From Phytoactinopolyspora limicola (GTDB taxonomy: Bacteria; Actinomycetota; Actinomycetes; Jiangellales; Jiangellaceae), in contig NZ_JAAOEN010000004.1 of NCBI RefSeq assembly GCF_011320225.1, forward strand, positions 124,001 through 188,000: a DNA stretch of 64,000 nt. Direction: 5' to 3'. The notes under the pieces were generated by a model. That model saw only the letters and a program-made list of their open reading frames with translations. It did not search any database and was not told the DNA's origin. This document shows, piece by piece, positions 10,448-39,146 of the stretch (positions are counted from its first letter, which is position 1; every line of letters begins with the position of its first letter). The position numbers and the translations under genes were made by a program.

Positions 10448-11769
10448 CGCGGGAACCTCGCTCGGACGGCCGCGCCGTGGGCGGGCAGGTCTTCGGCTTC
10501 GGCGAGGGTCTCGACGTGCCGGGCGACGTCGCGCAGCGCCGCCTCGTCGTATTCGACGACGTGGATGCCGCGCAGGAACGATTGGACGGACAGGCCGGAG
10601 GAGTGCCGGGCACACCCGCCGGTGGGTAGGACGTGGTTGGAGCCGGCCGCGTAGTCGCCGAGGCTGACCGGCGCCCACGGACCGACGAAGATCGCCCCGG
10701 CGTTGCGCACCCGGGCGGCGACCGCGGCGGCGGCGCGGGTTTGGACTTCCAGGTGTTCGGCGGCGTAGGCGTCGACGACGGCCAGCCCTTGGTGGACGTC
10801 GTCGACGAGCACCGTGCCGGATTGTGCGCCGCGGAGCGCCGCTTGGACCCGCTCGACGTGTTTGGTGGCGGCGACCTGAAGCTCCAGCTCGGCGTCGACG
10901 GCGTCGGCGAGTTCAACGCTGTCGGTGACGAGGACACTAGCCGCCAAGGGATCGTGTTCGGCCTGGCTGATGAGGTCGGCGGCGACGTGCCGGGCGTCGG
11001 CGGAGTTGTCGGCGAGGACCGCGATCTCGGTCGGACCGGCCTCGGCGTCGATCCCGATGACACCCTTCAGGAGCCGTTTGGCGGCGGCGACGTAGACGTT
11101 GCCCGGGCCGGTGACGAGATCGACCGGGGCGCACACCAGCGTGCCGTCGTCGTCGCGCGCGCCGTAGGCGAACATGGCGACGGCCTGCGCACCCCCGACG
11201 GCGTACACCTCGGTGATGCCCAGCAGTGCACACGCGGCGAGGATGGTGGGATGCGGCCGGCCACCGGTGTTCTTCTGCGGCGGGCTGGCCACGGCCAGGC
11301 CCCGCACCCCGGCTGCCTGCGCGGGGACGACATTCATGACGACGCTGCTCGGGTAGACGGCGAGCCCGCCCGGCACGTAGAGCCCGACCCGCTCGACCGG
11401 GACCCAGCGTTCGGTGACCGTGCCACCGGGGACCACCGTGGTGGTGACGTCGGTTCGGCGCTGAGCGGCGTGGACGACGCGGGCCCGGGTGATCGACTCC
11501 TCCAGCGCGGCCCGGATGTCGGGCTCGAGGGTGTCCAGCGCCTCGGCGAGCGCCGCTTCCGGCACCCGCAGGTCGGCCACCTCCACCCCGTCGAAGCGCG
11601 CGGTGTACTCCTTGAGCGCCGCGACCCCACGATGACGCACGTCGGCGCAGATGGGTCGGACGGCGTCGAGTGCGGACTCGACGTCGACGGGAGCACGTGG
11701 GACCAGCGCGCGGTAGTCGAGGACCTCACCCGCGGCGAGGCGGCCGCGCAGGTCGATGCGGCGTATCAC
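10444..11769 (-). CDS. hisD: histidinol dehydrogenase HisD
   Basis: Zn-dependent NAD enzyme that oxidises histidinol to histidine in two steps. It is 441 residues, normal length, starting [15 protein letters not shown]. Conserved segments are [70 protein letters not shown] and [10 protein letters not shown], the last carrying the catalytic Glu-His. It is first of the his genes. The roughly 480-bp region upstream must hold its promoter, but I could not pick a clear -10/-35 on the minus strand. Confidence 0.97.
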
Positions 11770-12053
11770 TCAGAAGAGTCTATGTAGCGCGTCCACAACT
11801 TGGACAACCCGCCCGCATACCAAGACGGCCAGCGTTCCTTTCCGGCACCATGGTGGCACACCTCGCACCTCGATCCGGCGAGCTACCCAGCCGACAGACG
11901 TGGCTGCGCCGTAGGACCGCCGAGCCGCGAGCACCATGCCTCGAATACGGAATCAGTGGCGATGAGACGCCATCACCGAGCGCATCATCGCCTTGATCGC
12001 CCTTGAGGAAGGATTACGGCATTCGGTACGACATGCCAGCGTGCAAAACGTAG

Positions 12054-12082
12054 TTGACATGAACTGCAAACCTTTGTAGTCT
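12054..12082 (+). promoter_or_regulatory. promoter with embedded LacI-type operator upstream of the first creatinase-like gene
   Basis: TTGACA (12054-12059) and TAGTCT (12077-12082) are separated by 17 bp, matching a sigma70-type promoter. Between them lies GCAAACCTTTGT (12066-12077), one base off the operator consensus RCAAACGWTTGY. The predicted transcript would have a leader of about 160 nt containing a second, perfect operator. The rest of the 11770-12247 gap shows no gene. Confidence 0.6.
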
Positions 12083-12165
12083 CCACGTCAAGTCCTGCCG
12101 GAGGATCTCGTGCCTGACCATGTATTTCGCTGGTCAAATGATCCAACAACGGTGACCTTATCTTT

Positions 12166-12177
12166 GCAAACGATTGC
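12166..12177. promoter_or_regulatory. LacI-type operator GCAAACGATTGC
   Basis: Perfect match to the window consensus, 70 bp upstream of the creatinase-like gene and 100 bp after the promoter-embedded site. Paired sites at this distance would allow looping by a LacI-type dimer of dimers (inference). Confidence 0.75.
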
Positions 12178-12247
12178 CAACACACCTCACAATGCGGTTC
12201 GATCACCGGCGGCGGCGCCATACCCCCTGTGAACGAAGGGACGTGTC

Positions 12248-13441
12248 ATGACAGACAAGACCACCCAGCACCGGACCACACTGGACAGTGCGGGGCTCTA
12301 TCCCCGATTCACTCAGGCGGAATTTGCCCGGCGCTACGATGCGGTGCGTGGATTTCTGGACCGTTCCGGTCTCGACGCTCTCGTCGTCTTCGGTTCGTCC
12401 GCGGTGGGCCAGGCCGGACAGGCCGATGTGCACTACCTCACCAACTACCTGGGCATGCAATCCACGTTCGTGTTGCTGTCGCGCGACACCGAGCCAACCT
12501 TGTTCATCCAGGTCTACAACCACGTTCCCAATGCTCAACAGGCGGCGGCCATAGCTGACGTGCAGTGGGCGGGAGCGTTGCCCGGCGAGACGCTGGGGGC
12601 AGCCCTCCGGCACCGTGGCGCACAGACCATTGGGGTCGTGGGCGCGATGCCCTATCAGAGCCACGAGTCGATGCGTCGCGCTGCCGCCTCCCATGCCGAG
12701 TTCAGGGACGTCACCAACGAGTTCCAGGCCCTGCGCACCGTCAAGAGTGACGAAGAGATCAACTGGCTGCGCCGCGGCGCGAAGTTCACCGACCTGGCGC
12801 TCGCCGCTCTCGAACGTGAGCTACGCCCAGGATTACGCGAGGAGGAACTCGGTGAGATCGTCGAGGGTTCCTACCGTGCCGCGGGCGGACAGACCGTGTT
12901 CCACTACATCACCAGCACCCCCATGGCTCAACCCGGCAGCTGCGTACCAGCACAGGTGCTGTCTCGGCGCCGGATCGAGCCGGGAGATCTCGTGATCGTC
13001 GAGATCAGTGCCGCCTACGCCGGGTATGCCGGCCAGGGGCTGCGCTCCTACGTCGTCGACGCGGACGCCACACCACTCGTCGAGGAGTTACACGCCACAG
13101 CTGAGGACGTCTTCACCCGTCTGTTCGATTCGGTCCGCGCCGGATCGACGGCCGACGACGTGTTGGCTGCCTCGGACAGTATTGGCGCCAGCGGCTTCAC
13201 CATTCGCGACGCGTTGGTGCACGGCTTCGGCATGGGCCTGCTCCCACCCACCATCGGCACCCGTCAAACCCCCTGGGACAACGATCCCTGGACGTTCCGC
13301 GAGAACGAAACCATCGTGGTCCAGCCGAACGTGGTGACCACCGACGAACAGGTCGGGGTTCAGACCGGCCATCTGTGCAGGGTCACCGCGGACGGCCTGG
13401 AGTCGTTGCACGAATACCCCCTGAAGCTCGTGCACGTGTGA
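12248..13441 (+). CDS. creatinase-like M24-fold protein without metal ligands (paralogue 1)
   Basis: A 397-residue pita-bread-fold protein of creatinase/prolidase type: N-terminal domain about 1-150, then the M24 domain. The usual M24 metal ligands are replaced. The first Asp position reads VEISAAYAGY and the second AGQGLRS; the Glu of the EPG motif is VVQPNV, and the last Glu position is GVQTGHL. The His survives in DALVHGFGMG. Length and metal loss resemble creatinase, which hydrolyses a C-N bond without metal. It may therefore be an amidino or amide hydrolase rather than a peptidase. Two operators and a promoter lie upstream. A GAAGGGA ribosome-binding site supports the ATG start. Confidence 0.85.
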   Translation: MTDKTTQHRTTLDSAGLYPRFTQAEFARRYDAVRGFLDRSGLDALVVFGSSAVGQAGQADVHYLTNYLGMQSTFVLLSRDTEPTLFIQVYNHVPNAQQAAAIADVQWAGALPGETLGAALRHRGAQTIGVVGAMPYQSHESMRRAAASHAEFRDVTNEFQALRTVKSDEEINWLRRGAKFTDLALAALERELRPGLREEELGEIVEGSYRAAGGQTVFHYITSTPMAQPGSCVPAQVLSRRRIEPGDLVIVEISAAYAGYAGQGLRSYVVDADATPLVEELHATAEDVFTRLFDSVRAGSTADDVLAASDSIGASGFTIRDALVHGFGMGLLPPTIGTRQTPWDNDPWTFRENETIVVQPNVVTTDEQVGVQTGHLCRVTADGLESLHEYPLKLVHV

Positions 13442-13451
13442 TGACACAAAA

Positions 13452-13491
13452 CACCGGTGTGCGGACGAGAGTCCGCACACCGGTGCTTTTT
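13452..13491 (+). terminator. strong intrinsic terminator with GAGA tetraloop
   Basis: A perfect 15-bp stem (CACCGGTGTGCGGAC at 13452-13466 with its complement 13471-13485) closes on a GNRA-type GAGA loop and is followed by CTTTTT. It ends the creatinase-like gene 11 bp after its stop. An A-run on the other side means it may also terminate the converging ABC operon. Confidence 0.88.
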
Positions 13492-13517
13492 ACCCGACGG
13501 GTGCTGCGCCGCCGGAT

Positions 13518-14330
13518 TTACCCGACGTGTGCTGCGCCGTCCGACCGACCGCGCTCCACCCCCATAACCAGCTCCCAGACGTAGTGGCGGATCTGCTGGA
13601 ACTCGGCGGAGGCGATCGTGCTGGGGTCCCGTGGCCGCGGCAACGGCACATCCACGATCGTCCGGATGGAACTGGGCCGGCCCATCATGACCACCACCCG
13701 ATCCCCCAGCAGGACCGCTTCCTCGATGGCATGGGTGACGAACACCATCGTCGTGGGATTCTCCGACCAGATGTTGAGCAACTCGAACTGCAACAGCTCA
13801 CGGGTCTGCGCATCCAGCGAACCGAAGGGCTCGTCCATCAGAAGTACGTTCGGGTTAACCGTCAACGCCCGGGCCAGACCGGCGCGTTGTTGCATACCTC
13901 CGGACAACTGGAAGGGGTAGGCATGTTCGCGGCCCTCAAGACCGACGAGTTTGATGAAATGTTGTGCGACATCGCGGATCTCGCTCTTCGGTACACCTCT
14001 GACCTTCAGACCGTAGCCGACGTTGCCCAGTACCGTCTTCCACGGGAATAGGCCGAAGTCCTGGAACACCATCGCGATGCTCTTCCGCGGACCGAGCACG
14101 GGTTCACCGTCGACCAAGACCTGACCCTGATCGGGTTTCAGCAAGCCGTTGAGACAACGCAACAACGATGTCTTTCCGCACCCCGATGGCCCTACGATGG
14201 AGATGATCTCGTTCTTGCCGACATCGAGGTCGACTCCTTGAAAGACACAAAGATCGTCGAACCACTTTCCTACGCCGGACAACACTATGCGCGGCGCGTC
14301 TGCTTTTTCAGTGTCGTTGATGGTCGCCAT
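13518..14330 (-). CDS. ABC transporter ATPase, SsuB/TauB/NMT1 type (system 1)
   Basis: The 270-residue ATPase of an NMT1-type importer. Walker A is GPSGCGKTS, the Q-loop VFQDFGLFPW, the signature LSGGMQQRAG, Walker B VLLMDEPFGSLD and the switch His VFVTHAIEEA. I chose the ATG giving MATINDTEKADAPRIV; a TTG eight codons upstream is the alternative. It is last gene of an SBP-permease-permease-ATPase operon. It is closely similar to the ATPase at 39147-39968, for example GKWFDDLCVF versus GKYFDELCVF. Confidence 0.92.
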   Translation of the reverse strand: MATINDTEKADAPRIVLSGVGKWFDDLCVFQGVDLDVGKNEIISIVGPSGCGKTSLLRCLNGLLKPDQGQVLVDGEPVLGPRKSIAMVFQDFGLFPWKTVLGNVGYGLKVRGVPKSEIRDVAQHFIKLVGLEGREHAYPFQLSGGMQQRAGLARALTVNPNVLLMDEPFGSLDAQTRELLQFELLNIWSENPTTMVFVTHAIEEAVLLGDRVVVMMGRPSSIRTIVDVPLPRPRDPSTIASAEFQQIRHYVWELVMGVERGRSDGAAHVG

Positions 14331-14366
14331 CACCGATGAACCCCATTTCGTCAATGGTAAGAGCCG

Positions 14367-15227
14367 TCACATGTTGCCGTACCAGGGCAAGAATTTTTCG
14401 ATTGTCTTCTGTACGCCCACCGTGAGCAATACCCCCACGATGGACAGGATCGCGATCGCGACGACGGCCTCGTCATGCCTGAAGGTCGTCGTGAGCGTCA
14501 TGGCATAAATGCCAAGCCCATCCACCGCCGTGAGAAATTCGACGACCACCGCGGCGGTCAACGCTCGCCCTGAGGCCAATCGAAATCCCGCGACGAGGTA
14601 GGGCAATGACGCCGGGACCGCGATGCCGAGCCAGACATGGCGGCGCTGAGCACCGAATGAGTCCGCGATCTCCAGGTATCTCTTGGAGACGGCTCGGCTC
14701 CCGTCCCAGGCGCCGATGGCCAGCGGGGGAAATGCCGAGAAGATGACCAACGCGATCCGGGTCTGCTCGGAAAACCCGAACCACAACGTGAAGATGGGGA
14801 GAATGGCCAGCATGGGTGTGGCATACAGGCCATTGATGTACGGGCCGAGCGCTGCTTCGAGGGTCTTGGCCTGGCCCAGCGCGATGCCGACCAGCAGCGC
14901 CGCCGCCCCGCCCAACCCCAAGCCGATGGCAACGTCCACCAGTGTCATGCGGGTGTTGTTCCAGAGTTGAGCGTCTGTTGTCAGCATCTCGGGGGCCACC
15001 GCCAGAATCCCTAGCGGCGTCGCCATGTAGTCACGGCCGAACATCATGACCCCGGCCTGCCAGGCGGTCATGATGACCACAAAAGTGCCCAGCCTGGTCC
15101 GCACTGACTTCGAGCGCCACATACGCCCGATGGCCCGAGCCGCCTTGGCTTCCGGGGATGACCGCGGCGTTGGCCCCGGATCCCCGGGGGCCGCGCGATC
15201 GGGGTGGGTATCCGTCAGATCAGCCAT
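14367..15227 (-). CDS. ABC transporter permease, SsuC/TauC type (system 1, permease B)
   Basis: A permease of about 286 residues with around six membrane helices and an EAA-type cytoplasmic loop (EIADSFGAQRRHVWLGIAVPASLPYLVAG). I chose the ATG with upstream GGAGAGG (MADLTDTHPDR); a GTG at 15284, touching the preceding stop, would add 19 residues. It works with the neighbouring permease as a heterodimer in the membrane. A 36-bp gap separates it from the ATPase gene. Confidence 0.9.
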   Translation of the reverse strand: MADLTDTHPDRAAPGDPGPTPRSSPEAKAARAIGRMWRSKSVRTRLGTFVVIMTAWQAGVMMFGRDYMATPLGILAVAPEMLTTDAQLWNNTRMTLVDVAIGLGLGGAAALLVGIALGQAKTLEAALGPYINGLYATPMLAILPIFTLWFGFSEQTRIALVIFSAFPPLAIGAWDGSRAVSKRYLEIADSFGAQRRHVWLGIAVPASLPYLVAGFRLASGRALTAAVVVEFLTAVDGLGIYAMTLTTTFRHDEAVVAIAILSIVGVLLTVGVQKTIEKFLPWYGNM

Positions 15228-15284
15228 CCCAGCACCATCCTCTCCAGGTCGGCTCCGACCGCGGGGCGCGCTCACCGTCGCCAC

Positions 15285-16103
15285 TCATGACCGCCACCGA
15301 CTGAACCGCGTTTCCAGGACGCGACCGCCAGCCATCGCAACCAGGCCGATGGTCACCACCACGACCACCGCCGCCAGCAGATTGTCCATCTGATAGCGGC
15401 GCGCGTAGATCAAGAGCAACTGCCCCAACCCCGACGAGTCGAGCAAGAACTCGGCGCCGATCATGCCGACCAGGCCGCGCGCGATACCTTGCCGGATCCC
15501 CGTCATGGCGTAGGGAACGGTGGCCGGGATCACGACGTCTTTCCACACGCCCCATTCGTTGGCACCAAACGACCGGGCTACCTCCACCAGGCGGCGGCTG
15601 ATCGCCCGAACCCCCTCGATGACGTTGAAACAGACGGGAAAGAAGACGAAGAGCACCACTACGAGCGTCTTCGGCCAGAATCCGAAACCGATGACCGCCA
15701 AGATGAACGGGATAAGAACGATGTTCGGCATGATGTAGAGGAAGGTGATGTAGTCCTCCAACCCCAGCCGAAGAATTTCGATCCGGCCGACCGCGACCCC
15801 GACGATCAACCCAAGAGCTGTTCCAAGCGCGAACCCCGCGGCGAAGAGCTGCAAGGATTCGAGCAGTCCGGTAGCCAGATCGCCATTCTGGACGATGTGA
15901 ATCAAGGCGCCGGCGGTCTCGGAGAAAGACGCGAAGAAGATCGGGTCCAAGAAGAAGCGACCGATGATCTCCCAGAGAATCGCACCTACCGCCAGACTTA
16001 CCAGCGTAATGACCCGCGATCGATGACGGTCGAACCAAGTATGGCGGCCGAGCACGGGTGGCATTGTGTTCCGCTGAACTTCGACTGTGGCTGACGTACC
16101 CAC
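15285..16103 (-). CDS. ABC transporter permease, SsuC/TauC type (system 1, permease A)
   Basis: A 272-residue permease with five to six hydrophobic helices and the EAA loop EVARSFGANEWGVWKDVVIPATVPYAMTG. The GTG start is supported by an AAAGGTGA ribosome-binding site directly upstream; a longer GTG start at 16139 is possible. It lies between the solute-binding lipoprotein and permease B. Confidence 0.9.
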   Translation of the reverse strand: MGTSATVEVQRNTMPPVLGRHTWFDRHRSRVITLVSLAVGAILWEIIGRFFLDPIFFASFSETAGALIHIVQNGDLATGLLESLQLFAAGFALGTALGLIVGVAVGRIEILRLGLEDYITFLYIMPNIVLIPFILAVIGFGFWPKTLVVVLFVFFPVCFNVIEGVRAISRRLVEVARSFGANEWGVWKDVVIPATVPYAMTGIRQGIARGLVGMIGAEFLLDSSGLGQLLLIYARRYQMDNLLAAVVVVVTIGLVAMAGGRVLETRFSRWRS

Positions 16104-16169
16104 GTGATCACCTTTCAATCCTGCGCCGATACAGACCATTCAGGGGCCGGCGTCAGCGACCGGCCGGTG

Positions 16170-17249
16170 TCAGGAGCGCTGCTCCACCATCTCGAACGCT
16201 TCATCCCAATAACGCGTGTCGAAGGCGTCGTCATAGTCGAATGCGCTCGGTATGTTCCCGAGGTCGAGCTGGGTTTGAATCGATGATTCGATCACCGAGC
16301 GATCTAGACCGATGTCGTCGAGCTGCCACCAGTCCATCTCGAGGTATTCGCGCAAGATCTCCGCTACCACGTCGGGATCATCTTGTTCGACTATCTCCGC
16401 CAGAAAGGGAACGAGATCGTCGAAGTTGTCGGGGTCATGCATGAATCGAATCGTCTCGATATGCGCGGCCAACAGCCGGACGATGACCTCGGGCCGCTTC
16501 TCGAGTACGTCGTTGCTGGCCACGACCGTCACGTAGTGCACGCTGACCGCATCGCTGAGTCTGCGAAGAATCCGCCAATCGTCGTCGGTCAGATGCCGAA
16601 GTTCGGCGAGTTCGTCGATGTGGAGGACATGTGTGTCCAGGACACCGGCCACCAAGGGCGCGACATGGTCACCGCCGGCACCAGTGTCGACGGTGTTGAC
16701 GTCGGCGATGTCGACACCGCAGCTGTCCAGGATCAGGTCCAACACCAGATGCCGGGTGTCCCCTGGCGCCATGGCGCCGGAGCTACGACCGGTCATGTCC
16801 TCGCACGATTGCACCTGCGGGTCTCTGGTCACCAGGATCCAGTCGATCTGGTCGAGTCCCGCGATACCCGTCACCTTGATGCCCTGCACTACGCCACCGA
16901 GGAACGGGTCGGTCCCGGTGAACCCGACATCGATCTCGCCGGTATGCGCCGCCTGGACGTTGTCTCCCCCCGACACGAGTGGCCGGAACTCGACGTCCAG
17001 ATCCCACCGGGCGTAGAAGCCGAACTCCTCGGCGACGTACGCGAGCGTCGCCACCCAGATCGGATTCAACTGTCCGGGGTGCCCGAGGGTGATCGGATCA
17101 CCAGCTTCCGGTGCGGCATCGTCGCTGGTGTCCGACTCGGATCCACCGCCGCATGCGGCCACGATGGGCAACAACAACGCTGCCATGAGCTTACGCGCCC
17201 GGGCTCCGGGCGGGTGTCCTCGCTTCGAACCTGTCGGTTGTGTCTTCAT
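16170..17249 (-). CDS. NMT1/THI5-type solute-binding lipoprotein (system 1)
   Basis: A 359-residue lipoprotein with a Lys/Arg-rich start, hydrophobic segment and lipobox IVAAC, followed by a Gly/Ser/Asp-rich linker. The body has the features of NMT1/SsuA-type receptors (LTLGHPGQLNPIWVATLAYVA-like opening, HTGEIDVGFTGTDP, VQSCEDMTG). This family binds pyrimidines, sulfonates, riboflavin or other small heterocycles. It is similar to the receptor at 38053-39141 in the VQSC-DL segment and the C-terminal YWDEAFEMVE, so the two probably bind related ligands. First gene of its operon, with operator GCAAACGTTTGC about 100 bp upstream. Confidence 0.92.
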   Translation of the reverse strand: MKTQPTGSKRGHPPGARARKLMAALLLPIVAACGGGSESDTSDDAAPEAGDPITLGHPGQLNPIWVATLAYVAEEFGFYARWDLDVEFRPLVSGGDNVQAAHTGEIDVGFTGTDPFLGGVVQGIKVTGIAGLDQIDWILVTRDPQVQSCEDMTGRSSGAMAPGDTRHLVLDLILDSCGVDIADVNTVDTGAGGDHVAPLVAGVLDTHVLHIDELAELRHLTDDDWRILRRLSDAVSVHYVTVVASNDVLEKRPEVIVRLLAAHIETIRFMHDPDNFDDLVPFLAEIVEQDDPDVVAEILREYLEMDWWQLDDIGLDRSVIESSIQTQLDLGNIPSAFDYDDAFDTRYWDEAFEMVEQRS

Positions 17250-17350
17250 CGCCCACTCCCTGGTCAGCCGGACAACACATGTCCTTCCACATCAGTGGAT
17301 CGATCACGTCGGATCGGTCGAGCCAGCTCTGGCTGGCGCTAGGAATCATC

Positions 17351-17362
17351 GCAAACGTTTGC
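17351..17362. promoter_or_regulatory. LacI-type operator GCAAACGTTTGC
   Basis: Fully palindromic version of the site, in the 328-bp divergent region between ABC system 1 and the second creatinase-like gene. Its position suits control of the ABC operon. The rest of this region shows no gene. Confidence 0.78.
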
Positions 17363-17542
17363 TGTCGCGTCAATACTTCTTCGATCGCTGATTTTGCTAC
17401 GGATTCCGTTGCCGAATGAAGAATAGTCGATGATTTCGCTGGCAGGAGCCGCCACGACCAGCACCCCGACTTGGGCCGATGAGTGCACCACACTGCTCTT
17501 GTGGTTGATGTTTACACCCAAGGTTCTGCCGGAGTACCGTGT

Positions 17543-17554
17543 GCAAACGATTGC
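17543..17554. promoter_or_regulatory. LacI-type operator GCAAACGATTGC
   Basis: Perfect site 23 bp upstream of the second creatinase-like start, where it would overlap the transcription start or the early leader. It lies 192 bp from the other operator in the same divergent region. Confidence 0.78.
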
Positions 17555-17577
17555 GGCCATCTTCCTGGAGGGTTCCG

Positions 17578-18723
17578 ATGATTGACACCGACCTGCGGTT
17601 CACTGATGCGGAATGGCAACGACGGGCACGTGTGTTGCGCGAGATCGCCGAGGCGCACGACGTCGCACACGTGCTGCTCTACGGCGCCGACCGAAGCGGG
17701 ACCTCCGTGCCCTGGTTGACTGGCTGGCCGGTGACCCGCGAAGCACTTGTGGTGTGGAGCACCGACGACGAACCAGTGCTGTTCGTCCAGTTTCGCAATC
17801 ACGTCCCGCAGGCGAGTTCGATGGTCGACCGGGCCGAGGTCCGGTGGGGAGGGTCATGCACGGTTCAATCGGCCGTCGACGAACTCGAGCGTCGTCGTGC
17901 CGGCCGCCGGGTCGGCGTCATCGGCCCACTGTCCTATACGTCCTACCGGATTCTGGTGGCGGCGGGATACGAGGTGACCAGCCTGGATGCGGCGTACGTC
18001 GACGCCCGGCTGATCAAATCGGCCGAGGAGATCCGGTTCCTCAGCCGAGGCGCGGAGCTGAGCGACGCTGGCCTGGCCGGCCTGATCGATGCAGCCCACC
18101 CCGGTGTCAGCGAGCGAGAGCTGATCAACTCCATCGAGCGCGCCTACGTGCCCAACGGTGGCGGGACCCATATCCACTACCTGATGTCTACACCGATGTC
18201 GAGACCGAGCCGGTGTGTGCCCGCTCAGCGACCATCGAAGCGCCGGCTCGAACGCGGCGACGTCGTCGTCACCGAGATCAGCGCCGACTACCAGGGGTAT
18301 GCCGGCCAGGTATTACGCACCATCACGGTTGACTCCGAACCCACGGCGCAGTACGCGGAGATGCACGAGGTGGCTCAGGTGACCTTCGAGCGCATCTGCG
18401 CGGTCCTCCGGGATGGCACCACCGCCGAGGAGGTCATCGAAGCCGCTTCGTCGATCGAAGCCGCCGGCCTGACCATCTGCGACGATCTCGTCCACGGCTA
18501 CGGAGGTGGTTACCTTCCACCGATCCTCGGGTCACGTAGCCAGCCACACCACCAAGGCTCCCACGTGGGGTTCGCAGCTGGCATGACGGTGGTCGTCCAA
18601 CCCAACGTCGTCACAGCCGACGGTCAGGCAGGCGTCCAGACCGGCGAACTCGTCCACGTGACCAGCACCGGTGTCGAGCGGCTACATTCGGCACCCCGCG
18701 GCATCCTCAGCTCGGCCCACTGA
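17578..18723 (+). CDS. creatinase-like M24-fold protein without metal ligands (paralogue 2)
   Basis: A 381-residue paralogue of the protein at 12248-13441. The same substitutions are seen at metal-ligand positions: TEISADYQGYAGQVLR for the two Asp, VVVQPNVV for the EPG Glu and GVQTGEL at the last Glu. The His is kept in DDLVHGYGGGYLPP. I chose the ATG with GGAGGG six bases upstream (MIDTDLRFTDAEW) over an in-frame upstream start. It is divergent from ABC system 1 and has its own operator. Paralogues flanking an importer suggest two related substrates or a heteromer (inference). Confidence 0.85.
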   Translation: MIDTDLRFTDAEWQRRARVLREIAEAHDVAHVLLYGADRSGTSVPWLTGWPVTREALVVWSTDDEPVLFVQFRNHVPQASSMVDRAEVRWGGSCTVQSAVDELERRRAGRRVGVIGPLSYTSYRILVAAGYEVTSLDAAYVDARLIKSAEEIRFLSRGAELSDAGLAGLIDAAHPGVSERELINSIERAYVPNGGGTHIHYLMSTPMSRPSRCVPAQRPSKRRLERGDVVVTEISADYQGYAGQVLRTITVDSEPTAQYAEMHEVAQVTFERICAVLRDGTTAEEVIEAASSIEAAGLTICDDLVHGYGGGYLPPILGSRSQPHHQGSHVGFAAGMTVVVQPNVVTADGQAGVQTGELVHVTSTGVERLHSAPRGILSSAH

Positions 18724-18748
18724 CCTACAACCAGCCCGTCGTCCAGCA

Positions 18749-20605
18749 TCAGGCCCGTTCGGCCCGCAGGGTTGGAGCGACCGGCCGCGCGGCTCCGATC
18801 CTGGCCGGAATCGCCGTAAACACCGCGACGACGAGGACAGTTGCGGGCACAACGGCCAGCAGCTGCCACAACGGCGGCACGAGCGTCTCGTCCGGATCCA
18901 CAGCGACATACAGCGCGAGACCGCCCGGAATACCCAACGTGGCACCGGCCGCGGCCGGAAACACCTGCGCCGCGGAGAGTCCGACGCTCACCTGTCGCGG
19001 AGTCACCCCGAGTGCCCGGAGAAGCGCCGACGTATGCCGGACGTCGAGCACTGTCGCCCACGTGACGAAGATCGTGTTGACCGCGGCCAGGATGATCAGC
19101 ATGACGGTGAGCACCAGCAGCACCCGGCCGAGCCGGTCCGATTGGAGGTCGACCGCGGCGCCGCCTCGTTGGGCGTTGAGCTGGGCATTGGCCGCGAGAG
19201 CGGCGACGATCCCGCTGGCCGTGACGGTCATGCTGACCACGCCGAGCACGACGCGGCGCGGCCGACGCGCGGCTATTCGCGACGCGACCAGCAGCGAAGC
19301 CGGCAGCCGCGACGAGACCGCAATCAGGCGTGCACTGCGCCGCGGCAGGCGGGCGGCGTCGGCCAGTGCACTCACGGTGCTCATCCGGGCCGCCCGAACC
19401 GCCGGGACACAGGTTGCCACCACCGCCACCGCCAGGGCTACCGCCGTAACCGAGGCGACGATCGGCACGGTCATTGCGGGCTCCACCCCGCCGCCGATGA
19501 GGCCCGCGGTCGGATCGGTGAGCAACGGGGCGGCCAGCCATCCGGCGGTCAGCCCGGCAGCGGACGCAATGAGCGCCACGCCCACATACTCCGCGAGCAG
19601 CACCGTGGCCACCAGGGCGGGAGTGCCCCCGACCGCCTTGAGCAACCCGACCCGGCGGATCTGGTCGGCCATCCGGCCACCCACGAGCACCGCGATGCTC
19701 GCCAGCGCGAGGGCGGCAAGCAGCCAGGCACCCGTGATCAGCGTGCGCTCGGTGTTCCGTTCCAGGTGGGTGACCTGGTCGACGATCTGCTGCCACGGCA
19801 CGAGCAGCGGTGCTCCCAGACTGTCCAGCATGTGGGTGTCGGCGAAGGCTTGAGCATCGGCCGGGTTGGTCAGCTTCAGATACGTGACGTAGGACAACGC
19901 GTCGGCTGATTCGGCGACGCCCCGCGCGTCGGCCGTGGTCAGCCAGATCAACCCGGGGTCGCGCAGCATCCCGTCGGGAGGTTCGACGCCGGGCGGCGGG
20001 TCGCCGAAGAGGCAGGGCACGATACATGCCGACGCAATCGGGTACGGCGGCGTAGCTGCGGTGACCGCGATTCCGGCGATGCCGAACGCCTGTCCGTTCA
20101 CCGTGACCTGATCACCGACGCGAACCCCCAGGGCGTCGGCAAGGGCGGCCTCGACGACCACCTCGCCGTCGGCAACCCAGGTGCCGTCGGTCACCCTTGG
20201 CTGGTCGACCTCCGCCACCGCTACGTCGCGGCCGATGGCCTGGACGTCCACGCGCTGGCCGCCGGCGTCGAGAGTCGCCGCCGCGGCCGGGAATGGACCG
20301 CTGTGGGCGGCCACCTCGGGGAGTCCGGCCAATACCTCGAGCGCGGCTCGGTCGGCCGGACGGCCAGCCGGCTCCGCGAAGGGTTCACCGGCCACCGAGG
20401 GAGGTGCCGCGCTGGCCACCACGTCGGGCCCGGCCGTGGCGTGCCGCGTGTTCTGGTATGGATCGCTCGCCACCCCGTGGATCAACAGCCCGAGCGTCAG
20501 CGTCGCGGTGGCCGCCACGATGGCGAGCAGCAGCAGGGCGGCCTCGGCGGGGCGCCGGCGCAGATCCCGGGCGGCCAGGCGAGTCACGAACAGCAGTCGG
20601 CCCAT
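18749..20605 (-). CDS. FtsX/MacB-type ABC permease
   Basis: A 618-residue FtsX-family permease: N-terminal helix (about 20-45), a large extracytoplasmic domain (about 50-290), three helices, a second helix at about 420-445, a second external part and a terminal helical cluster. It is the membrane partner of the adjacent MacB/LolD-type ATPase and belongs to mechanotransmission systems for envelope stress, lipids or peptides. The ATG (MGRLLFVTRLAARDLRRRP) lies 4 bp after the ATPase stop. It converges on the second creatinase-like gene. Confidence 0.9.
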   Translation of the reverse strand: MGRLLFVTRLAARDLRRRPAEAALLLLAIVAATATLTLGLLIHGVASDPYQNTRHATAGPDVVASAAPPSVAGEPFAEPAGRPADRAALEVLAGLPEVAAHSGPFPAAAATLDAGGQRVDVQAIGRDVAVAEVDQPRVTDGTWVADGEVVVEAALADALGVRVGDQVTVNGQAFGIAGIAVTAATPPYPIASACIVPCLFGDPPPGVEPPDGMLRDPGLIWLTTADARGVAESADALSYVTYLKLTNPADAQAFADTHMLDSLGAPLLVPWQQIVDQVTHLERNTERTLITGAWLLAALALASIAVLVGGRMADQIRRVGLLKAVGGTPALVATVLLAEYVGVALIASAAGLTAGWLAAPLLTDPTAGLIGGGVEPAMTVPIVASVTAVALAVAVVATCVPAVRAARMSTVSALADAARLPRRSARLIAVSSRLPASLLVASRIAARRPRRVVLGVVSMTVTASGIVAALAANAQLNAQRGGAAVDLQSDRLGRVLLVLTVMLIILAAVNTIFVTWATVLDVRHTSALLRALGVTPRQVSVGLSAAQVFPAAAGATLGIPGGLALYVAVDPDETLVPPLWQLLAVVPATVLVVAVFTAIPARIGAARPVAPTLRAERA

Positions 20606-21950: not shown

Positions 21951-23327
21951 CTAGATCCGAGATCCGGCCTCGGTCAGGACCGACCGGAGGATCACCTCCA
22001 TTTCGTCGAACTGCTGCTGATCGCAGACCAACGGTGGAGCAAGCTGGATAACCGGATCGCCCCGGTCGTCGGCCCGGCAGTACAGGCCAGCGTCGAAGAG
22101 GGCCTTCGAGAGGAATCCGCGTAGCAGACTCTCCGACTCCTCCTGGTTGAACGATTGTTTGGTCGCCTTGTCTTTGACCAGCTCGATTCCGAAGAAGTAG
22201 CCGTCTCCCCGAACATCGCCGACGATCGGCAGGTCGAGCAGCTTGGCAAGGGTCGCGCGGAACCGAGGGGAATTGTCGGTGACGTGCTGGTTGAGCTTCT
22301 CTCGGTCGATGATGTCCAGGTTGGCCAGCGCAACCGCGGCCGACACCGGATGCCCGCCCCAGGTGTAGCCGTGCCCGAAGCTGGCGTGCCCTCGGGAGAA
22401 CGGCTCGAATACCCGGTCGCTGGCGATCATCGCCCCGAGCGGTGCGTAACCGGAGGTGATCCCCTTCGCGCAAGTGATGATGTCGGGTACGTACCCGTAG
22501 ACGTCGGCACCGAAGTACCCACCCAGCCGGCCGAACGCGCAGATCACTTCATCCGACACCAGGAGCACATCGTACTCATCACAAATTTCTCGCACCCGCT
22601 CGAAATAGCCCGGTGGTGGCGGAAAACAACCACCGGCGTTCTGCACTGGCTCCAGGAAGACCGCGGCCACCGTTTCCGGGCCCTCGAACTCGATCGCCTC
22701 CGCGATGCGGTCAGCTGCCCATCGACCGAAGGCCACGGGATCGTCGATGTGTTCGGGCTGCCGATAAGGATTGGTGTTCGGCACCCGGATCGAACTGGGA
22801 ACGAGAGGTTCATATGCCGACTTGAGCTCCGGCAGGCCGGTCAGCGACAGGGCGCCGTGCGTGGTGCCGTGGTACGCGATGGCTCGGCTGATCACCTTGT
22901 GTTTCGTCGGCCGCCCAGTGAGCTTGAAGTACTGCTTGGCGAGCTTCCACGCCGATTCGACCGCTTCGCTGCCGCCGGTGGTGAAGAACACCTTGTTGAG
23001 ATCACCCGGCGCCAATCCGGCGAGCCGCTCGGCGAGTTCGACCGCCCGTGGGTGGGCATATGACCAGATGGGGAAGTAGGCGAGCTGCGCGGCCTGGCTG
23101 GCGGCGGCCTCCGCGAGTTCAGCCCGGCCGTGCCCCACTTGCACGACGTACAGCCCCGACAGGCCATCGAGATAGCGACGACCATGAGCGTCCCACACAT
23201 ACGGACCCTCACCACGAACGATGACCGGCACCTCGCTCTGCTCATATGCTGACATCCGGGTGAAGTGCATCCACAGGTTGGTGTGGGCCGTGCGAGACAT
23301 GGCATGTGCGTCGTTCGGGTCCGTCAT
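21951..23327 (-). CDS. class III PLP aminotransferase (omega-amino acid/diamine type)
   Basis: A 458-residue fold-type I class III aminotransferase. Motifs are GLYVVQVGHG, FFTTGGSEAVESAWKLA, YHGTTHGAL, LLVSDEVICAFGR, the PLP Lys in DIITCAKGITSGYAPLGA, and GHGYTWGGHPVSAA. Such enzymes move amino groups from beta-alanine, GABA, putrescine or taurine-like substrates to pyruvate or 2-oxoglutarate. The ATG start overlaps the stop of the upstream Lrp gene as ATGA, so the two are coupled. The exact substrate is unknown. Confidence 0.93.
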   Translation of the reverse strand: MTDPNDAHAMSRTAHTNLWMHFTRMSAYEQSEVPVIVRGEGPYVWDAHGRRYLDGLSGLYVVQVGHGRAELAEAAASQAAQLAYFPIWSYAHPRAVELAERLAGLAPGDLNKVFFTTGGSEAVESAWKLAKQYFKLTGRPTKHKVISRAIAYHGTTHGALSLTGLPELKSAYEPLVPSSIRVPNTNPYRQPEHIDDPVAFGRWAADRIAEAIEFEGPETVAAVFLEPVQNAGGCFPPPPGYFERVREICDEYDVLLVSDEVICAFGRLGGYFGADVYGYVPDIITCAKGITSGYAPLGAMIASDRVFEPFSRGHASFGHGYTWGGHPVSAAVALANLDIIDREKLNQHVTDNSPRFRATLAKLLDLPIVGDVRGDGYFFGIELVKDKATKQSFNQEESESLLRGFLSKALFDAGLYCRADDRGDPVIQLAPPLVCDQQQFDEMEVILRSVLTEAGSRI

Positions 23328-23797
23328 CGGGTCCCCCAAGCGTAGGTCTGTTTCCTCAGCCGCAAATAGACGAAGCTCTCCGTGCCACGAACCCCGGGGA
23401 TGGCGCGGATCCGCTTGCTGATGATCTCTAGTAGATGATCGTCGTTCTCACATACGATCTCGGCGAGCACGTCGAACGAACCGGCGGTCATGACGCAGTA
23501 GGAGACCTCGCTCATCTCGGCGAGGCGGTCGGACACCGGCTCGATTTCACCGTCGACAGTGATTCCGATCATGGCCTGCCGGTTGAAGCCCAGCTGCAAG
23601 GGGTCCGTCACCGCGACGATCTGCATGATGCCGGCCTCCAGGAGGCGCTGCACACGTTGGCGAACGGCAGCCTCCGACAGTCCGACTTCGCGCCCGATGG
23701 CGGCGTACGACTTCCGTCCGTCCTGCTGGAGTTGCTCGATGATCATCTTGGCGATGTCGTCGAGCAACACGTCGACATTGCCGCCGTGGACACTCAT
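23324..23797 (-). CDS. Lrp/AsnC-family regulator
   Basis: A 157-residue Lrp/AsnC protein. The N-terminal HTH (KMIIEQLQQDGRKSYAAIGREV, LSEAAVRQRVQRLLEAGIM) is followed by a C-terminal RAM/AsnC ligand domain (about 75-150, with the Gly-Ser-Phe-Asp segment TAGSFDVLAEIV). It is cotranscribed with the class III aminotransferase and probably regulates it in response to an amino acid or amine. The upstream 305-bp region is AT-rich around 23850-23920 and is shared with the divergent LacI gene. Confidence 0.92.
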   Translation of the reverse strand: MSVHGGNVDVLLDDIAKMIIEQLQQDGRKSYAAIGREVGLSEAAVRQRVQRLLEAGIMQIVAVTDPLQLGFNRQAMIGITVDGEIEPVSDRLAEMSEVSYCVMTAGSFDVLAEIVCENDDHLLEIISKRIRAIPGVRGTESFVYLRLRKQTYAWGTR

Positions 23798-23998: not shown

Positions 23999-24010
23999 AC
24001 AAACGATTGT
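23999..24010. promoter_or_regulatory. LacI-type operator ACAAACGATTGT
   Basis: Lies 92 bp upstream of the LacI-family gene in the divergent Lrp/LacI region. The flanking T and A extend the symmetry to TACAAACGATTGTA. This is the best sequence argument that the neighbouring regulator binds this motif (autoregulation). Confidence 0.78.
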
Positions 24011-24102: not shown

Positions 24103-25137
24103 ATGAACCGACCCACGCTGCGTGATGTCGCCCAGGCGGCCGGTGTCCACCCGGCCACTGTCTCGCGAGCACTGAACCCGCAGACGCGACAACTCGTCAA
24201 CGCCGACACCGCCCAGCGGGTCCTGCGCACGGCACGATCGCTCGGATACCGCCCCAACCCGTTCGCCCGCACCCTCAAAACCGCCCGTTCGGCCACGGTC
24301 GGGCTGGTCATCCCGGACCTCACCAATCCGCTGTTCCCACCCATCGTTCGCGGCCTGGAAGACGTCCTCGGCACCGCGGGTTACGGCGTCTGGGTGGTCA
24401 ACACCGACAACGACGAACAACGCGAGGCCGCCGCCATCGAGTCGCTGCGCGCCCGCAACGTCGACGGCTACGTCCTGGCCACCGCCCGCCTCAACCATCC
24501 GCTGATCGACGAGCTGGCCGCCGAGAACGTACCCGTGCTGCTGGTCAACCGCCGCACCGAACGCGCCGACATCCCGTCGGTCACACCCGACGACGCCTCC
24601 GGGGTGGCCCTGGCCATGCGGCACCTCGTCGAGTTGGGGCATCGTCGCATCGTCCACCTGGCCGGACCCCAGTCACTCTCCACCGGATATCAACGGCTGC
24701 GCGCGTTCCGGTACGCGCTGCACGATCACGGCCTCCCCGACGCCCCGGAGCTCGTCGTCGAGTGCGAGTCCTTCACCGAAGACGCCGGGGCCAAGGCCGT
24801 TCAGCGGCTGCTGGACGACGACGTCGAGTTCACCGCGGTGCTGGCCGGCAACGACCTCCTCGCGGTCGGCTGCTACGACGCCCTCGAGGAGCGGGGCCTG
24901 AGCTGCCCCGCCGACGTCAGTGTCGTCGGATTCAACGACACCCGCTTCATGGACAAGCTGCACCCCCCGCTCACCACGGTGCGGATCCCGCATTACGACA
25001 TCGGCGCCGAGGCCGCCCGGCTGCTACTCGAAGGGCTGAACCAGCCGCAGCGGCATGCGCGGTCGGTGTTGCTGCCGTTGTCCCTCGTCGTCCGAGCCTC
25101 CACGGCACCCCCGGCGCCCCGCACCCGCGCCACGTAG
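24103..25137 (+). CDS. LacI-family transcriptional regulator, probable master regulator of the local regulon
   Basis: A 344-residue LacI/GalR protein: an N-terminal HTH and hinge (TLRDVAQAAGVHPATVSRAL, about 5-30, then the YRPNPFARTL hinge) and a periplasmic-binding-protein-like effector domain (about 60-330, with VGLVIPDLTNPLF and the terminal TTVRIPHYDIG). Family members bind short palindromes with a central CG, which fits the twelve RCAAACGATTGY sites between 12 and 50 kb, one of them upstream of this gene. The effector is unknown. The stop codon lies inside a repeated sequence that continues downstream. Confidence 0.93.
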   Translation: MNRPTLRDVAQAAGVHPATVSRALNPQTRQLVNADTAQRVLRTARSLGYRPNPFARTLKTARSATVGLVIPDLTNPLFPPIVRGLEDVLGTAGYGVWVVNTDNDEQREAAAIESLRARNVDGYVLATARLNHPLIDELAAENVPVLLVNRRTERADIPSVTPDDASGVALAMRHLVELGHRRIVHLAGPQSLSTGYQRLRAFRYALHDHGLPDAPELVVECESFTEDAGAKAVQRLLDDDVEFTAVLAGNDLLAVGCYDALEERGLSCPADVSVVGFNDTRFMDKLHPPLTTVRIPHYDIGAEAARLLLEGLNQPQRHARSVLLPLSLVVRASTAPPAPRTRAT

Positions 25138-25267: not shown

Positions 25268-27415
25268 TCACGTTTCCAGGGCGGCGACGATCCGCTCCGG
25301 CGTCAGAGGAAGGTCGCGGACGTCCACCCCCAACGCGTCGCGGACGGCATTGGCGATGGCCGCCGCTGTCGGCCCGTGGGCGATCTCGCCGGCCCCGACG
25401 CTTGGCTCGTCCGGCCGGTTGATCACCTCGACGTGCACGTCGGGAACGGCACGGAACCGCAGGATCGGATACGTCTCCCAGTCGGTGCTGGTGACCCGGT
25501 GCCCGTCGAGGCGGGCCTGTTCCAGCAACGTCCAACTGGCCGCCTGGATCGCCCCACCCTCAAGCTGGTTGACCACCCCGTCGAGACTCACTATCCGGCC
25601 CACGTCGGCCGCGATGACCAGCCGGGTCACCCGGATCTCATGCACCGCCTCGACATCGGCGACGACGGCACAGTACCCAGACGTGCCCTTGTAGCGGGCC
25701 CAGGCGATGCCCCGGCCGGCGTCGGCCGCAGCCTGGTCGCGCCCACCCTGCTCGCGCCGCCACCCGGCCAGCTCGGCGGCGCGCTCGAGCACCGCCCGCG
25801 CCCGCGGGTCGCTCAGGTGGGCGAGCCGGTACTCCAGGGGATCCGCACCGATCCGCCTGGACAGCTCGTCCATCAACGATTCGATGGCGAACACGTTGGT
25901 GAACGCACCGAGCGCCCGTAGGGACGACGTCCGCACCCGCGTATCCACCACCCGGTGACCGGTCACCCGCCGCGCCGGGAAGTCGTAACCGGGATCGGCG
26001 TTGCGCACGGAGCCGCCACCGGCCGCCAACGGTGGATCCACCGACGGCGGCAACACCTGCCGGTCGCGGTGGGCGGCCCCGAGCAGCCCGTGCGACCCGC
26101 CGTATCCGGGGCGGGCGACGTGACCCTGGCTCCATACGTCCACGGACCAGGTGGCGACGTGCCCGCGCGCGTCCAGGCCGGCTTCCACATCCACGGCCAT
26201 GGCGGGGCCGAGTGGCCCCGAGCCCAGTTCGTCGGCCCGGCTCCACACCACCTGGACCGGGCGGCCGGGGACGGCCCGCGCCAGCAGCGCGGCATCGAAG
26301 GCGGCGTCGTCGGCACCGTTGTGTCCATAACTGCCCGCGGCCTCGACGTGGTGCACGACGACGTCCTGTTCCGGCACTCCGAACACCACCGCCAGCGCCG
26401 CCCGCAGCGGATATACCCCCTGGCTATGGCTCCACACGGTGAGTTGAGATCCCGCCCACCGGGCGATCGCACAGCTCGGCCCGATCGCGGCGTGGGCCAG
26501 GAACGGGCGGGTATAGGTGGCGCGGACGGTGGTCACCACACCCACCGCGGCCGTGGCATCGCAGATGTTCACCACGTCGATCCGGTCGGCTGGGGCAGAC
26601 CGCCGCGGCTGCGCTGGATCCCCGGTTCCGGCCGGGTTCGGTGGCAGCTCCCACTGGGCGGTGTCGGCCAGTGCCGCGGCCGCCCGGATGGCCACCTCCT
26701 CCCGCTCGGCCACCACCCCTAAGAAATCTCCCTGCCGGACCGTGGCGATGACGTGGGCACCAACAAGCGACGTGTCGACGGTGCTCAGGTGCGCTGCGCG
26801 GACCGGCGGGCGGACCACCCGGCCCCACACCTGTCCGGGGAGGTGGAGGTCATGGAGGAACCGGGGCCGCCCGAGCACCTTGTCCGGCAGGTCGACACGT
26901 GGCGGGTTGGGTGGATCCGCCGGCGCCGGTGCGGGCCGCACCCACGACGGGCCACGGGCGTCCCGGTCGAGGACGTCGGCGTCGAGATCCCAGTAACTGA
27001 CCGCGCTGTCCCCGGCCGCCGTCCCGACCACACCGTCCCGGACGACGAGCGCGGCGGGGTCGGCGTCGAGCCGGGCGGCGGCCACCTCGATGAGCAGCGC
27101 CCGCACTTCGGCACACACCTGACGTAGTGCCGCCACCGACCGGGCCACCGACAGGCTGCCCGCGGTGAGCCCTTCGGCCGGGCCCGCGGCGGTGCTGACC
27201 GGTTGGACGACGACGCGTGAGTCGTCGACACCCAACTCCTCGGCTGCCGCCTGGGTGAGCGCCGTCCAGATGCCCTGCCCCAGCTCCACCTTGCCGACCC
27301 GCACCAGGACGTGCCCGGTGTCGCTGAGATCGAGCCAGGTGGACAGCCGGGGGTTGGCCGCGAGGCTGGGCGGCAGGGTGTCGGCGGCGGATCGTGCCGG
27401 GTCAGCCGTCGTCAT
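25268..27415 (-). CDS. molybdopterin-binding subunit, isoquinoline 1-oxidoreductase / nicotinate dehydrogenase B type
   Basis: A 715-residue large subunit of a two-subunit molybdenum hydroxylase of the IorB/aldehyde oxidase class. It starts with the typical VRVGKVELGQGIWTALTQ segment and has VRTSSLRALGAFTNVFAIESLMDEL and the catalytic Glu region GAGEIAHGPTAAAIANA near the end. The family hydroxylates N-heterocycles or aldehydes using water, passing electrons to a [2Fe-2S] subunit. The ATG overlaps the end of that subunit's gene by 14 bp. No signal peptide and no XdhC-like maturation gene are visible here. Confidence 0.9.
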   Translation of the reverse strand: MTTADPARSAADTLPPSLAANPRLSTWLDLSDTGHVLVRVGKVELGQGIWTALTQAAAEELGVDDSRVVVQPVSTAAGPAEGLTAGSLSVARSVAALRQVCAEVRALLIEVAAARLDADPAALVVRDGVVGTAAGDSAVSYWDLDADVLDRDARGPSWVRPAPAPADPPNPPRVDLPDKVLGRPRFLHDLHLPGQVWGRVVRPPVRAAHLSTVDTSLVGAHVIATVRQGDFLGVVAEREEVAIRAAAALADTAQWELPPNPAGTGDPAQPRRSAPADRIDVVNICDATAAVGVVTTVRATYTRPFLAHAAIGPSCAIARWAGSQLTVWSHSQGVYPLRAALAVVFGVPEQDVVVHHVEAAGSYGHNGADDAAFDAALLARAVPGRPVQVVWSRADELGSGPLGPAMAVDVEAGLDARGHVATWSVDVWSQGHVARPGYGGSHGLLGAAHRDRQVLPPSVDPPLAAGGGSVRNADPGYDFPARRVTGHRVVDTRVRTSSLRALGAFTNVFAIESLMDELSRRIGADPLEYRLAHLSDPRARAVLERAAELAGWRREQGGRDQAAADAGRGIAWARYKGTSGYCAVVADVEAVHEIRVTRLVIAADVGRIVSLDGVVNQLEGGAIQAASWTLLEQARLDGHRVTSTDWETYPILRFRAVPDVHVEVINRPDEPSVGAGEIAHGPTAAAIANAVRDALGVDVRDLPLTPERIVAALET

Positions 27416-27899
27416 GTCGTTGCCCTGGTCCGGTGGCAGCGGCCAGCACCGCGCGCACGATCCGGTGGTGGGTCCCGCACCGGCACAGGTGGCGTTCGAG
27501 GGCGGTCCGGACGTCGTCGGCGGTCGGCTCCGGGGTGTCGCGCAGCAGCGCGGTGGCGGCGACGACGATGCCGCTGAGGCAGTACCCGCACTGCCCGGCT
27601 TGTTCGTCGAGCACGGCCCGCTGCACCCGGTTGGGGCACCCCTCCGACGCCAAGCCTTCAACGGTGACCACGTCGCGCCCGGCGGCCGCCCACAGCGGAA
27701 GGTCACACGACGGTGTGGGATGCCCGTCGACGAGAACCACACAGGCCCCGCAGAGTCCCTGGCCACAGCCGAACCTGGTGCCTTTCAGGCCGAGATCGTT
27801 GCGGAGCAGGTACAACAGCGGCGTCTCGGGATCCACGCTCGTGTGCACCGGTGTGCCGTTGACCGTCAGCGCCGTGCCGGAGCTGCCCTCGGGTGCCAC
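27402..27899 (-). CDS. [2Fe-2S] subunit of molybdenum hydroxylase (IorA/CoxS type)
   Basis: A 165-residue iron-sulfur subunit. The plant-ferredoxin-type cluster motif is GCGQGLCGACVVLVDG with the fourth Cys in PTPSC; the second cluster motif is QCGYCLSG and HLCRCGTH. It carries electrons from the Mo centre of the downstream gene product. I chose the GTG giving VAPEGSSGTALTVNGTPV, starting 4 bp after the CMD-like gene stop; a longer in-frame ORF reaching 28508 overlaps that gene and is not real. Confidence 0.92.
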   Translation of the reverse strand: MAPEGSSGTALTVNGTPVHTSVDPETPLLYLLRNDLGLKGTRFGCGQGLCGACVVLVDGHPTPSCDLPLWAAAGRDVVTVEGLASEGCPNRVQRAVLDEQAGQCGYCLSGIVVAATALLRDTPEPTADDVRTALERHLCRCGTHHRIVRAVLAAATGPGQRHDDG

Positions 27900-39141: not shown

Positions 39142-39146
39142 CGTCG

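Follow-up and report, generated by a model that had tools for sequence, protein, structure and literature searches.

M24 metallopeptidases, among them the M24B prolidases or Xaa-Pro dipeptidases (1pv9, 1wy2), bind metal through five ligands, D-D-H-E-E. The same fold serves metal-free chemistry in creatinase (creatine amidinohydrolase; 1chm, 7yto) and in the ectoine hydrolase DoeA/EutD (6twj, 6twk, 6yo9). Creatinase catalysis uses His232, Glu262 and Glu358, the Glu pair holding the cationic guanidinium, and DoeA acts through a covalent intermediate. The N-terminal domain of Spt16 is metal-free as well. In the DMSP lyase DddP, a catabolic non-peptidase of the same fold, the metal ligands are retained according to excerpts of PMC4108388, and a creatinase is described, in an excerpt of PMC7568399, as keeping more than 80% of its activity with EDTA.

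The present analysis concerns two further proteins of this fold, P0001 and P0002, encoded in a stretch of 64,000 nucleotides from Phytoactinopolyspora limicola (the window, hereafter), and the family to which they belong. This family is widespread and without a name of its own, and no description of it was found in the literature searched, whose coverage was partial.

The fold and the altered metal site of P0001

P0001, a protein of 397 residues, is encoded by the ORF 12248-13441 (+), whose coordinates and frame are exact. Its membership of the pita-bread M24 fold is seen both from its Pfam Peptidase_M24 score of 78.4 bits (gathering score 23), accompanied by 41.2 bits for Creatinase_N, and from structure matches. 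The AlphaFold2 model, computed from a 49-row alignment, reaches a mean pLDDT of 94.5 and displays the two-domain creatinase/prolidase fold. Comparison of a predicted structure with creatinase and prolidase had been advised in a preliminary description of this DNA, and the model does share the fold of both (VIA-align Z of 36.0 for creatinase 1chm and 36.5 for prolidase 5cde), but the best match is DoeA 6yo9, with a Z of 39.1 over 360 aligned positions at 2.2 A; DddP and Spt16 follow at 32.2 and 29.8. By sequence profile, the solved structures come in the order metallo-prolidases (E 3e-34), creatinase (6e-22) and DoeA (8e-16). The best NCBIfam score is 54.1 bits, for a cut-off of 630.

Alignments to prolidases and to two metallo-M24 paralogues of the same genome, both of which retain D, D, H, E and E, indicate that the ligand set has become E252 (VEISA), Q263 (AGQGLRS), H325 (LVHGFG), Q359 (VVQPN) and G374 (GVQTGH) in P0001. 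The five-ligand M24 set is absent, and the His is the sole ligand kept. A misalignment of the ligands was rejected because MAFFT, hhalign and the prolidase comparisons are concordant. The preliminary description had read the same replacement, including the retained His, from the sequence, and had held that every carboxylate ligand was replaced; all four have indeed changed, but the first Asp has given way to Glu252, which is still a carboxylate. As regards the last one, most relatives have a Glu one residue past the ligand position, whereas P0001 itself has His375 there. Conserved ligands in shifted positions, which that description had named as evidence against itself, are reduced to a single candidate, Glu375, missing from P0001.

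The catalytic His of M24 proteins (His243 in AMPP, as given in the PDB title of 2bws) corresponds to Ala235 in P0001, a loss absent from the preliminary description. Both copies encoded in the window, P0001 and P0002, have four of the five ligands replaced. The creatinase counterpart of Ala235 is presumably His232. The window's own genome also encodes, at C21:34582-35706 (L004), an M24 protein whose ligands read S, E, H, E and S and whose catalytic His is kept; its PDB matches include creatinase 1chm.

Conservation and phylogeny of the family

Relatives were sought with tblastn (E<=1e-3) in 84,980 species genomes, in which 144 stretches encode one; the best 80 of the 144 loci were kept, and the 81 sequences above 300 bits from these were counted, most of them from metagenome-assembled genomes whose organism names may be wrong. 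E252, Q263, D321, H325, Q359 and Q372 are each found in 81 of the 81 relatives; since the search patterns included the Q359 motif and the D321/H325 motif, the counts of these three residues carry a bias that does not affect E252, Q263, Q372 or position 235. Position 235 is His in none of the 81. G374 is present in 80, the remaining sequence ending before the fifth ligand, and four of the five ligands are replaced in those same 80. Glu375 occurs in 70 of the 81 relatives, the others having, among other residues, Gly, Ala, Gln or Asp. The site being invariant in 81 relatives, chance loss or decay to a pseudogene was rejected.

Of the 393 genomes of the class, a profile search identified 11 with the family, counting that of the window. 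Its 12 sequences, two of which come from the window, all have Q263, D321, H325 and Q359, and 11 have E252; the exception, from locus L009 of genome G040, has Ala at 252. In the 49-row alignment A3, 18 columns are invariant, including Q263, R266, D321, H325, Q359 and Q372. A full metal site is kept by no aligned member, although divergent members (Haladaptatus L091, copies b and c of L017, copy b of L041 and copy b of L049) keep the Glu of the fourth ligand position. Two haloarchaeal plasmids carry family members, and two haloarchaeal members are annotated as Xaa-Pro peptidase or M24 metallopeptidase. On a Tectomicrobia contig (L017:268-6239), three M24 proteins of the metal-free clade are encoded close together, two of them with the Glu at the fourth ligand.

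P0002 is encoded at 17578-18723 (+), with its ATG at 17578, across an ABC transporter operon from P0001, and its assignment as a second metal-free M24-fold protein is based on Pfam, alignments and the tree. The two proteins are 41% identical over 374 aligned columns. In a quick tree with long branches, whose two outgroup rows did not group on one side, the family, the haloarchaeal members and the divergent copies of L017, L041 and L049 come together as a single clade (SH-aLRT 99) that takes in 34 of its 45 rows. Within the same tree, P0002, but not P0001, falls in a set of 22 rows with a support of 98; Pfam, the model, the alignments and the tree together place P0001 as a divergent copy of this 'QPN' family. 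P0001 and P0002 are therefore either old paralogues or separate arrivals. A tandem duplication in place was not favoured, the two lying in different subclades of that long-branched quick tree.

Genes around the two copies

Upstream of P0001 lie genes that appear, from gene order and sequence, to be his genes. Between P0001 and P0002, an operon on the minus strand (13518-17249), convergent with the former and divergent from the latter, encodes in the Pfam/NCBIfam scan an ABC transporter ATPase of the NitT/TauT type (13518-14354), two BPD_transp_1 permeases (14367-15284 and 15285-16139) and an NMT1/THI5-like substrate-binding protein (16170-17249). A terminator-like hairpin with a 15 bp stem lies at 13452-13485, where the P0001 and ABC genes converge, such sites numbering 5 in 11700-18800 for a mean of 3.2 in shuffles; a scan of the same region for sigma-70 promoters gave one match, not above chance.

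Further along, the window encodes a class III aminotransferase (21951-23339, -; NF005102 above cut-off), downstream of the gene of an Lrp/AsnC regulator (23324-23797, -; Pfam/NCBIfam scan), then a LacI-family regulator (24103-25137, +) with 64-67% identity to regulators in L046, L050 and L089. It is followed by a molybdopterin oxidoreductase large subunit (25268-27766, -), 53% identical to an L050 protein, by a carboxymuconolactone decarboxylase-like protein, CMD (27904-28467, -), and by an Amidohydro_2 amidohydrolase (28600-29598, +), 54% identical to an L074 protein. In the oxidoreductase, the best MoCoBD_2 stretch precedes the best MoCoBD_1 stretch. A second NitT-type ABC operon covers about 36368-39974; its NMT1-like substrate-binding protein is encoded at 38053-39141 (-), the other genes being assigned by sequence only. 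Finally, a protein of the 3-hydroxyisobutyrate/tartronate-semialdehyde dehydrogenase (HIBADH) family, with BLAST matches in 25 family loci, is encoded at 40220-41215 (-), and an Amidohydro_3 amidohydrolase at 48235-49893 (-).

LacI-type operators and the regulon

The CG-centred word CAAACGNTTG matches 12 times in the window, i.e. at 11 distinct sites, one palindrome being counted on both strands. Only 0.16 matches are expected, and none of 100 shuffles reached 12. By our gene calls, intergenic DNA makes up 7.9% of the window and contains all 11 distinct sites. These putative LacI-type operators stand 72 bp upstream of P0001 (12166-12177), between the divergent ABC operon and P0002 (17351-17362, with a palindromic core, 217 bp upstream of P0002 and 103 bp from the operon) and 25 bp upstream of P0002 (17543-17554). 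Others are situated between the Lrp/AsnC and LacI genes (23999-24010), between the CMD and Amidohydro_2 genes (28505-28516), 29 bp upstream of the Amidohydro_2 gene (28561-28572), upstream of the second NitT-type ABC operon (40005-40016 and 40031-40042), upstream of the HIBADH-family gene (41241-41252) and, twice, upstream of the Amidohydro_3 gene (49944-49955 and 50044-50055). The CMD gene, which adjoins that of the oxidoreductase, has two operators upstream. P0001, P0002 and the catabolic genes are apparently under common control, and the LacI-family protein encoded at 24103-25137 is the candidate binder of these operators. A perfect palindrome of 20 bases, TGCGTCGCCATGGCGACGCA, lies at 40110-40129, upstream of the second ABC operon, and is unlike the LacI-type operator.

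In the whole genome of 6.59 Mb, the stricter form RCAAACGWTTG gives 17 matches at 15 distinct sites, 11 of which fall in the window, compared with a single match for the reversed-pattern control. One additional site, C1:414237, is located upstream of genes resembling cluster members, with HIBADH-like and Cys-M24 genes (see below) at a distance of about 5.6 kb; the genes directly following the site are taken, from their sequence, for 2-oxoacid dehydrogenase E1 and E2.

Elsewhere, the operator word occurs 18 times in the 15 Actinomycetota family loci, in 10 of them, with 0 matches for the reversed pattern. It precedes the M24 gene in L042, L073, L074 and also L009, HIBADH in L050, Amidohydro_2 in L074 and L088, LacI in L088, ABC genes in L073 and Cys-M24 in L069; the remaining sites are not followed by a called gene of these kinds. 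The LacI and M24 ORFs of L050 overlap. The operator was not seen in proteobacterial loci, where 822 kb from 54 Pseudomonadota loci contained 3 sites against 2 control matches. Similarly, an excess across whole genomes was sought in other family-bearing genomes and not found: the strict form counts 0-6 matches in the 10 of them, with none in G185 or G255, and likewise 0-6 in 19 genomes that lack the family. As these counts do not separate the genomes, the regulon is well shown for the window's genome only. Genome G005, of the same taxonomic family as the host, has four operator words near a Cys-M24 gene (C39:103400-115477; 83% identity) and no match to the metal-free M24; the gene set can therefore exist without it.

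Partner genes in other genomes

Neighbouring genes were clustered over 84 contexts, namely the window plus 83 loci flanked by 0-10 kb of sequence, using mechanically called ORFs and unequal flanks; over-called ORFs hid some neighbours, such as the hydrolase of L007, and some cluster names are derived from sequence. Bug/TctC-like binding proteins are encoded in 34 contexts, an alpha/beta hydrolase and a HIBADH-family dehydrogenase in 24 each, ABC ATPases in 23, an FMN-dependent 2-hydroxyacid oxidase in 17 and Cys-M24 in 15. Molybdopterin oxidoreductase large subunits are of two types, present in 11 and 8 contexts, the window's own being of the second. The family has different neighbours in different phyla, and its lineages may not all act on the same substrate.

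The alpha/beta hydrolase is related to 2,6-dihydroxypseudooxynicotine (DHPON) hydrolase (2jbw, E 1.4e-42), and its Ser223, Asp306 and His334 are invariant in 18 of 18 sequences. In the search of the 393 class genomes, it was found at E<=1e-100 in all 10 other family-bearing genomes, two of which (G029 and G053) contributed sequences to the hydrolase profile, and at this threshold in none of 56 relatives in which the family has no match at 1e-30 (best 2.8e-84). Its gene adjoins the M24 gene in 8 of the 10, with gaps of 36-191 bases between aligned ranges; in G040 the two genes are 2.3 kb apart, and in G238 they are on different contigs. A homologue (29% identity) also adjoins the Haloarcula family member. 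The genome of the window has no match to this hydrolase at E<=1e-30, and an obligate partnership was consequently rejected for it.

The second recurrent partner, Cys-M24, is another M24 protein, in which Cys occupies the second ligand position and the other four ligands, D, H, E and E, are kept along with the catalytic His. Copies are found at L126:8388-9632 (+), on C1 of the window's own genome, and in cluster 8, for example at L075:2873-4231 and L050:3294-4538. This protein is distantly DddP-like, the L075 copy scoring 115.9 bits for a cut-off of 600. At 66% identity or more to the own-genome copy, it is present in 9 of the 10 other family genomes (partial in G133, none in G053), compared with one (G005) of 19 chosen genomes without the family, 9 more of which have a copy at 57-59%.

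Proposed function

The metal site has been replaced by an invariant set of residues, and this within an apparently inducible catabolic regulon, which favours a working enzyme with new chemistry over decay. Our preferred reading, to which we would give a little less than an even chance, is that the P0001/P0002 family consists of metal-independent, DoeA-like hydrolases of an undescribed catabolic pathway, controlled by a LacI-family protein and acting with transporters, oxidoreductases and a further hydrolase. The NMT1/THI5-like transporters, molybdopterin oxidoreductases, amidohydrolases and DHPON-hydrolase-like partner would point to a nutrient that is an N-heterocycle or an amide. Metal-free C-N hydrolysis is a plausible activity for the family, and the Glu at the first ligand together with the catabolic context would be more in keeping with a hydrolase of DoeA type, opening a ring or cleaving an amide, than with creatinase chemistry.

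More precisely, the enzyme would, by analogy, be a homodimer, and Glu252, which aligns with Glu255 of DoeA, would attack or activate the carbon atom of an amide, lactam or imine in a small nitrogen-containing substrate. Gln263 and Gln359 would hold a neutral amide or carbonyl at positions which we take to be those of the guanidinium-holding Glu262 and Glu358 of creatinase, and proton transfer, for which the catalytic His is no longer present, would fall to Asp321 and His325. The pathway would be inducible, with a LacI-family protein as its regulator: NitT/TauT-type ABC transporters would ensure uptake and molybdopterin oxidoreductases an oxidation step, followed by hydrolysis performed jointly with the DHPON-hydrolase-type protein, itself missing from the window's genome. 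Several observations speak against the DoeA-like reading: metallo-prolidases are nearer by profile, the tree does not join the family and DoeA, and the counterpart of DoeA His238 is missing. In addition, the member from L009 in G040 has Ala252, divergent members keep Glu at the fourth ligand, and P0001 is devoid of Glu375.

The loss of both the metal ligands and the known catalytic His would also suit a non-catalytic protein, serving as a ligand-binding or scaffold subunit, for example as the partner of Cys-M24, much as in Spt16, to which the model is structurally matched. The association with Cys-M24 among the family genomes points the same way, even if about half of the 19 other genomes have the 57-59% copy. 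We regard such a pseudoenzyme as unlikely, given that few positions in the family are as conserved as those of the former active site, as expected of a working pocket, that the neighbourhoods are catabolic and that G053 has the family with no Cys-M24 match at 1e-40.

The preliminary description had taken the residue pattern for that of creatinase-type, metal-free C-N hydrolysis rather than of a peptidase. The part of this claim that stands is the departure from a standard metallopeptidase, with ligands lost from a pita-bread fold bearing the N-terminal domain of creatinase and DoeA; to this can be added the structural match to 1chm and the EDTA tolerance of a creatinase mentioned above. The mechanism of creatinase itself, based on a catalytic His and two Glu, is an improbable one for the family, since His is never found at position 235 in the 81 relatives and the positions presumed equivalent to Glu262 and Glu358 are Gln. 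Moreover, no sarcosine or creatinine genes were found in two haloarchaeal regions of 25 kb or among the 6 + 10 window proteins scanned.

A metalloenzyme whose site has been rebuilt or shifted around E252, H325 and Glu375 would account for the conservation of the first two in all 81 relatives and of the third in 70. We hold this to be no less improbable, P0001 having His375 and other members Gly, Ala, Gln or Asp at that position, and Gln263 and Gln359 probably making poor ligands. Lastly, an ordinary Xaa-Pro peptidase or M24 metallopeptidase, as the two haloarchaeal members are annotated and as the prolidases among the best sequence matches might suggest, is scarcely credible with four of the five ligands replaced in both window copies and 80 of the 81 relatives, and with the best NCBIfam score so far below its cut-off.

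For the metal-free family, these two annotations are very probably wrong. Should the DoeA-like hydrolase reading be true, a family of at least about 90 examined environmental proteins would be misnamed, and the shared operators and regulator, the transporters and the partner hydrolase would make the substrate directly testable.

Comparison with known systems

DoeA/EutD resembles the family in its two-domain fold, in the Glu replacing the first metal Asp with the other ligands lost, in its role in nutrient catabolism and in an adjoining ABC transporter. In its own numbering, DoeA has E255, P266 and H238, and its Glu255 is aligned with E252 by both MAFFT and hhalign, the latter profile against profile. 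DoeA differs in keeping H238, where P0001 has Ala235, in having P, Y, M and T where the family has Q, H, Q and G (MAFFT), and in not being its sister in the tree. The family thus has the first-ligand Glu in common with DoeA but, having no His at 235, differs from DoeA and, presumably, from creatinase; with the counterpart of His238 missing as well, neither known mechanism can be transferred unchanged. The DoeA equivalog TIGR02993 scores 45.6 bits for a cut-off of 613, no gene of the genome exceeding it, and no doeB/eutE deacetylase occurs among the window proteins scanned, which represent part of the window genes. An ectoine cluster, of which the aminotransferase and Lrp genes are reminiscent through DoeD and DoeX, was rejected as TIGR02993 is far under its cut-off. 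Riboflavin catabolism was likewise considered as a pathway for an M24 protein, and the words 'M24' and 'peptidase' appear 0 times in the main text of PMC12746152.

Creatinase shares the fold and the N-terminal domain with the family, but keeps the catalytic His that the family lacks, and its two catalytic Glu presumably correspond to Gln in the family. The M24B prolidases, although of the same fold and closest by sequence profile, are set apart by the replacement of four carboxylate ligands in the family, one of them by Glu, and by the loss of its catalytic His. DddP is comparable as an M24-fold catabolic protein other than a peptidase; the DddP model NF043017 gives P0002 22.7 bits for a cut-off of 600 and does not list P0001 at E<=0.001. 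The N-terminal domain of Spt16 has the M24 fold too, but belongs to a eukaryotic FACT subunit without catabolic context.

Taken together, these comparisons raise the possibility, held tentatively and with rather less than even confidence, of a new class of metal-independent pita-bread hydrolases. Its invariant Glu-Gln-Asp-His-Gln-Gln site would be unlike those of creatinase, DoeA, DddP and the prolidases, and it would open or cleave a nitrogen-containing substrate in a catabolic pathway, so far undescribed, that haloarchaea, Chloroflexota, proteobacteria and actinobacteria have in common. A DHPON-hydrolase-like protein would be its partner, and the actinobacteria would devote a LacI regulon to it. 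The M24 fold would then gain a further metal-free chemistry beside those of creatinase and DoeA.
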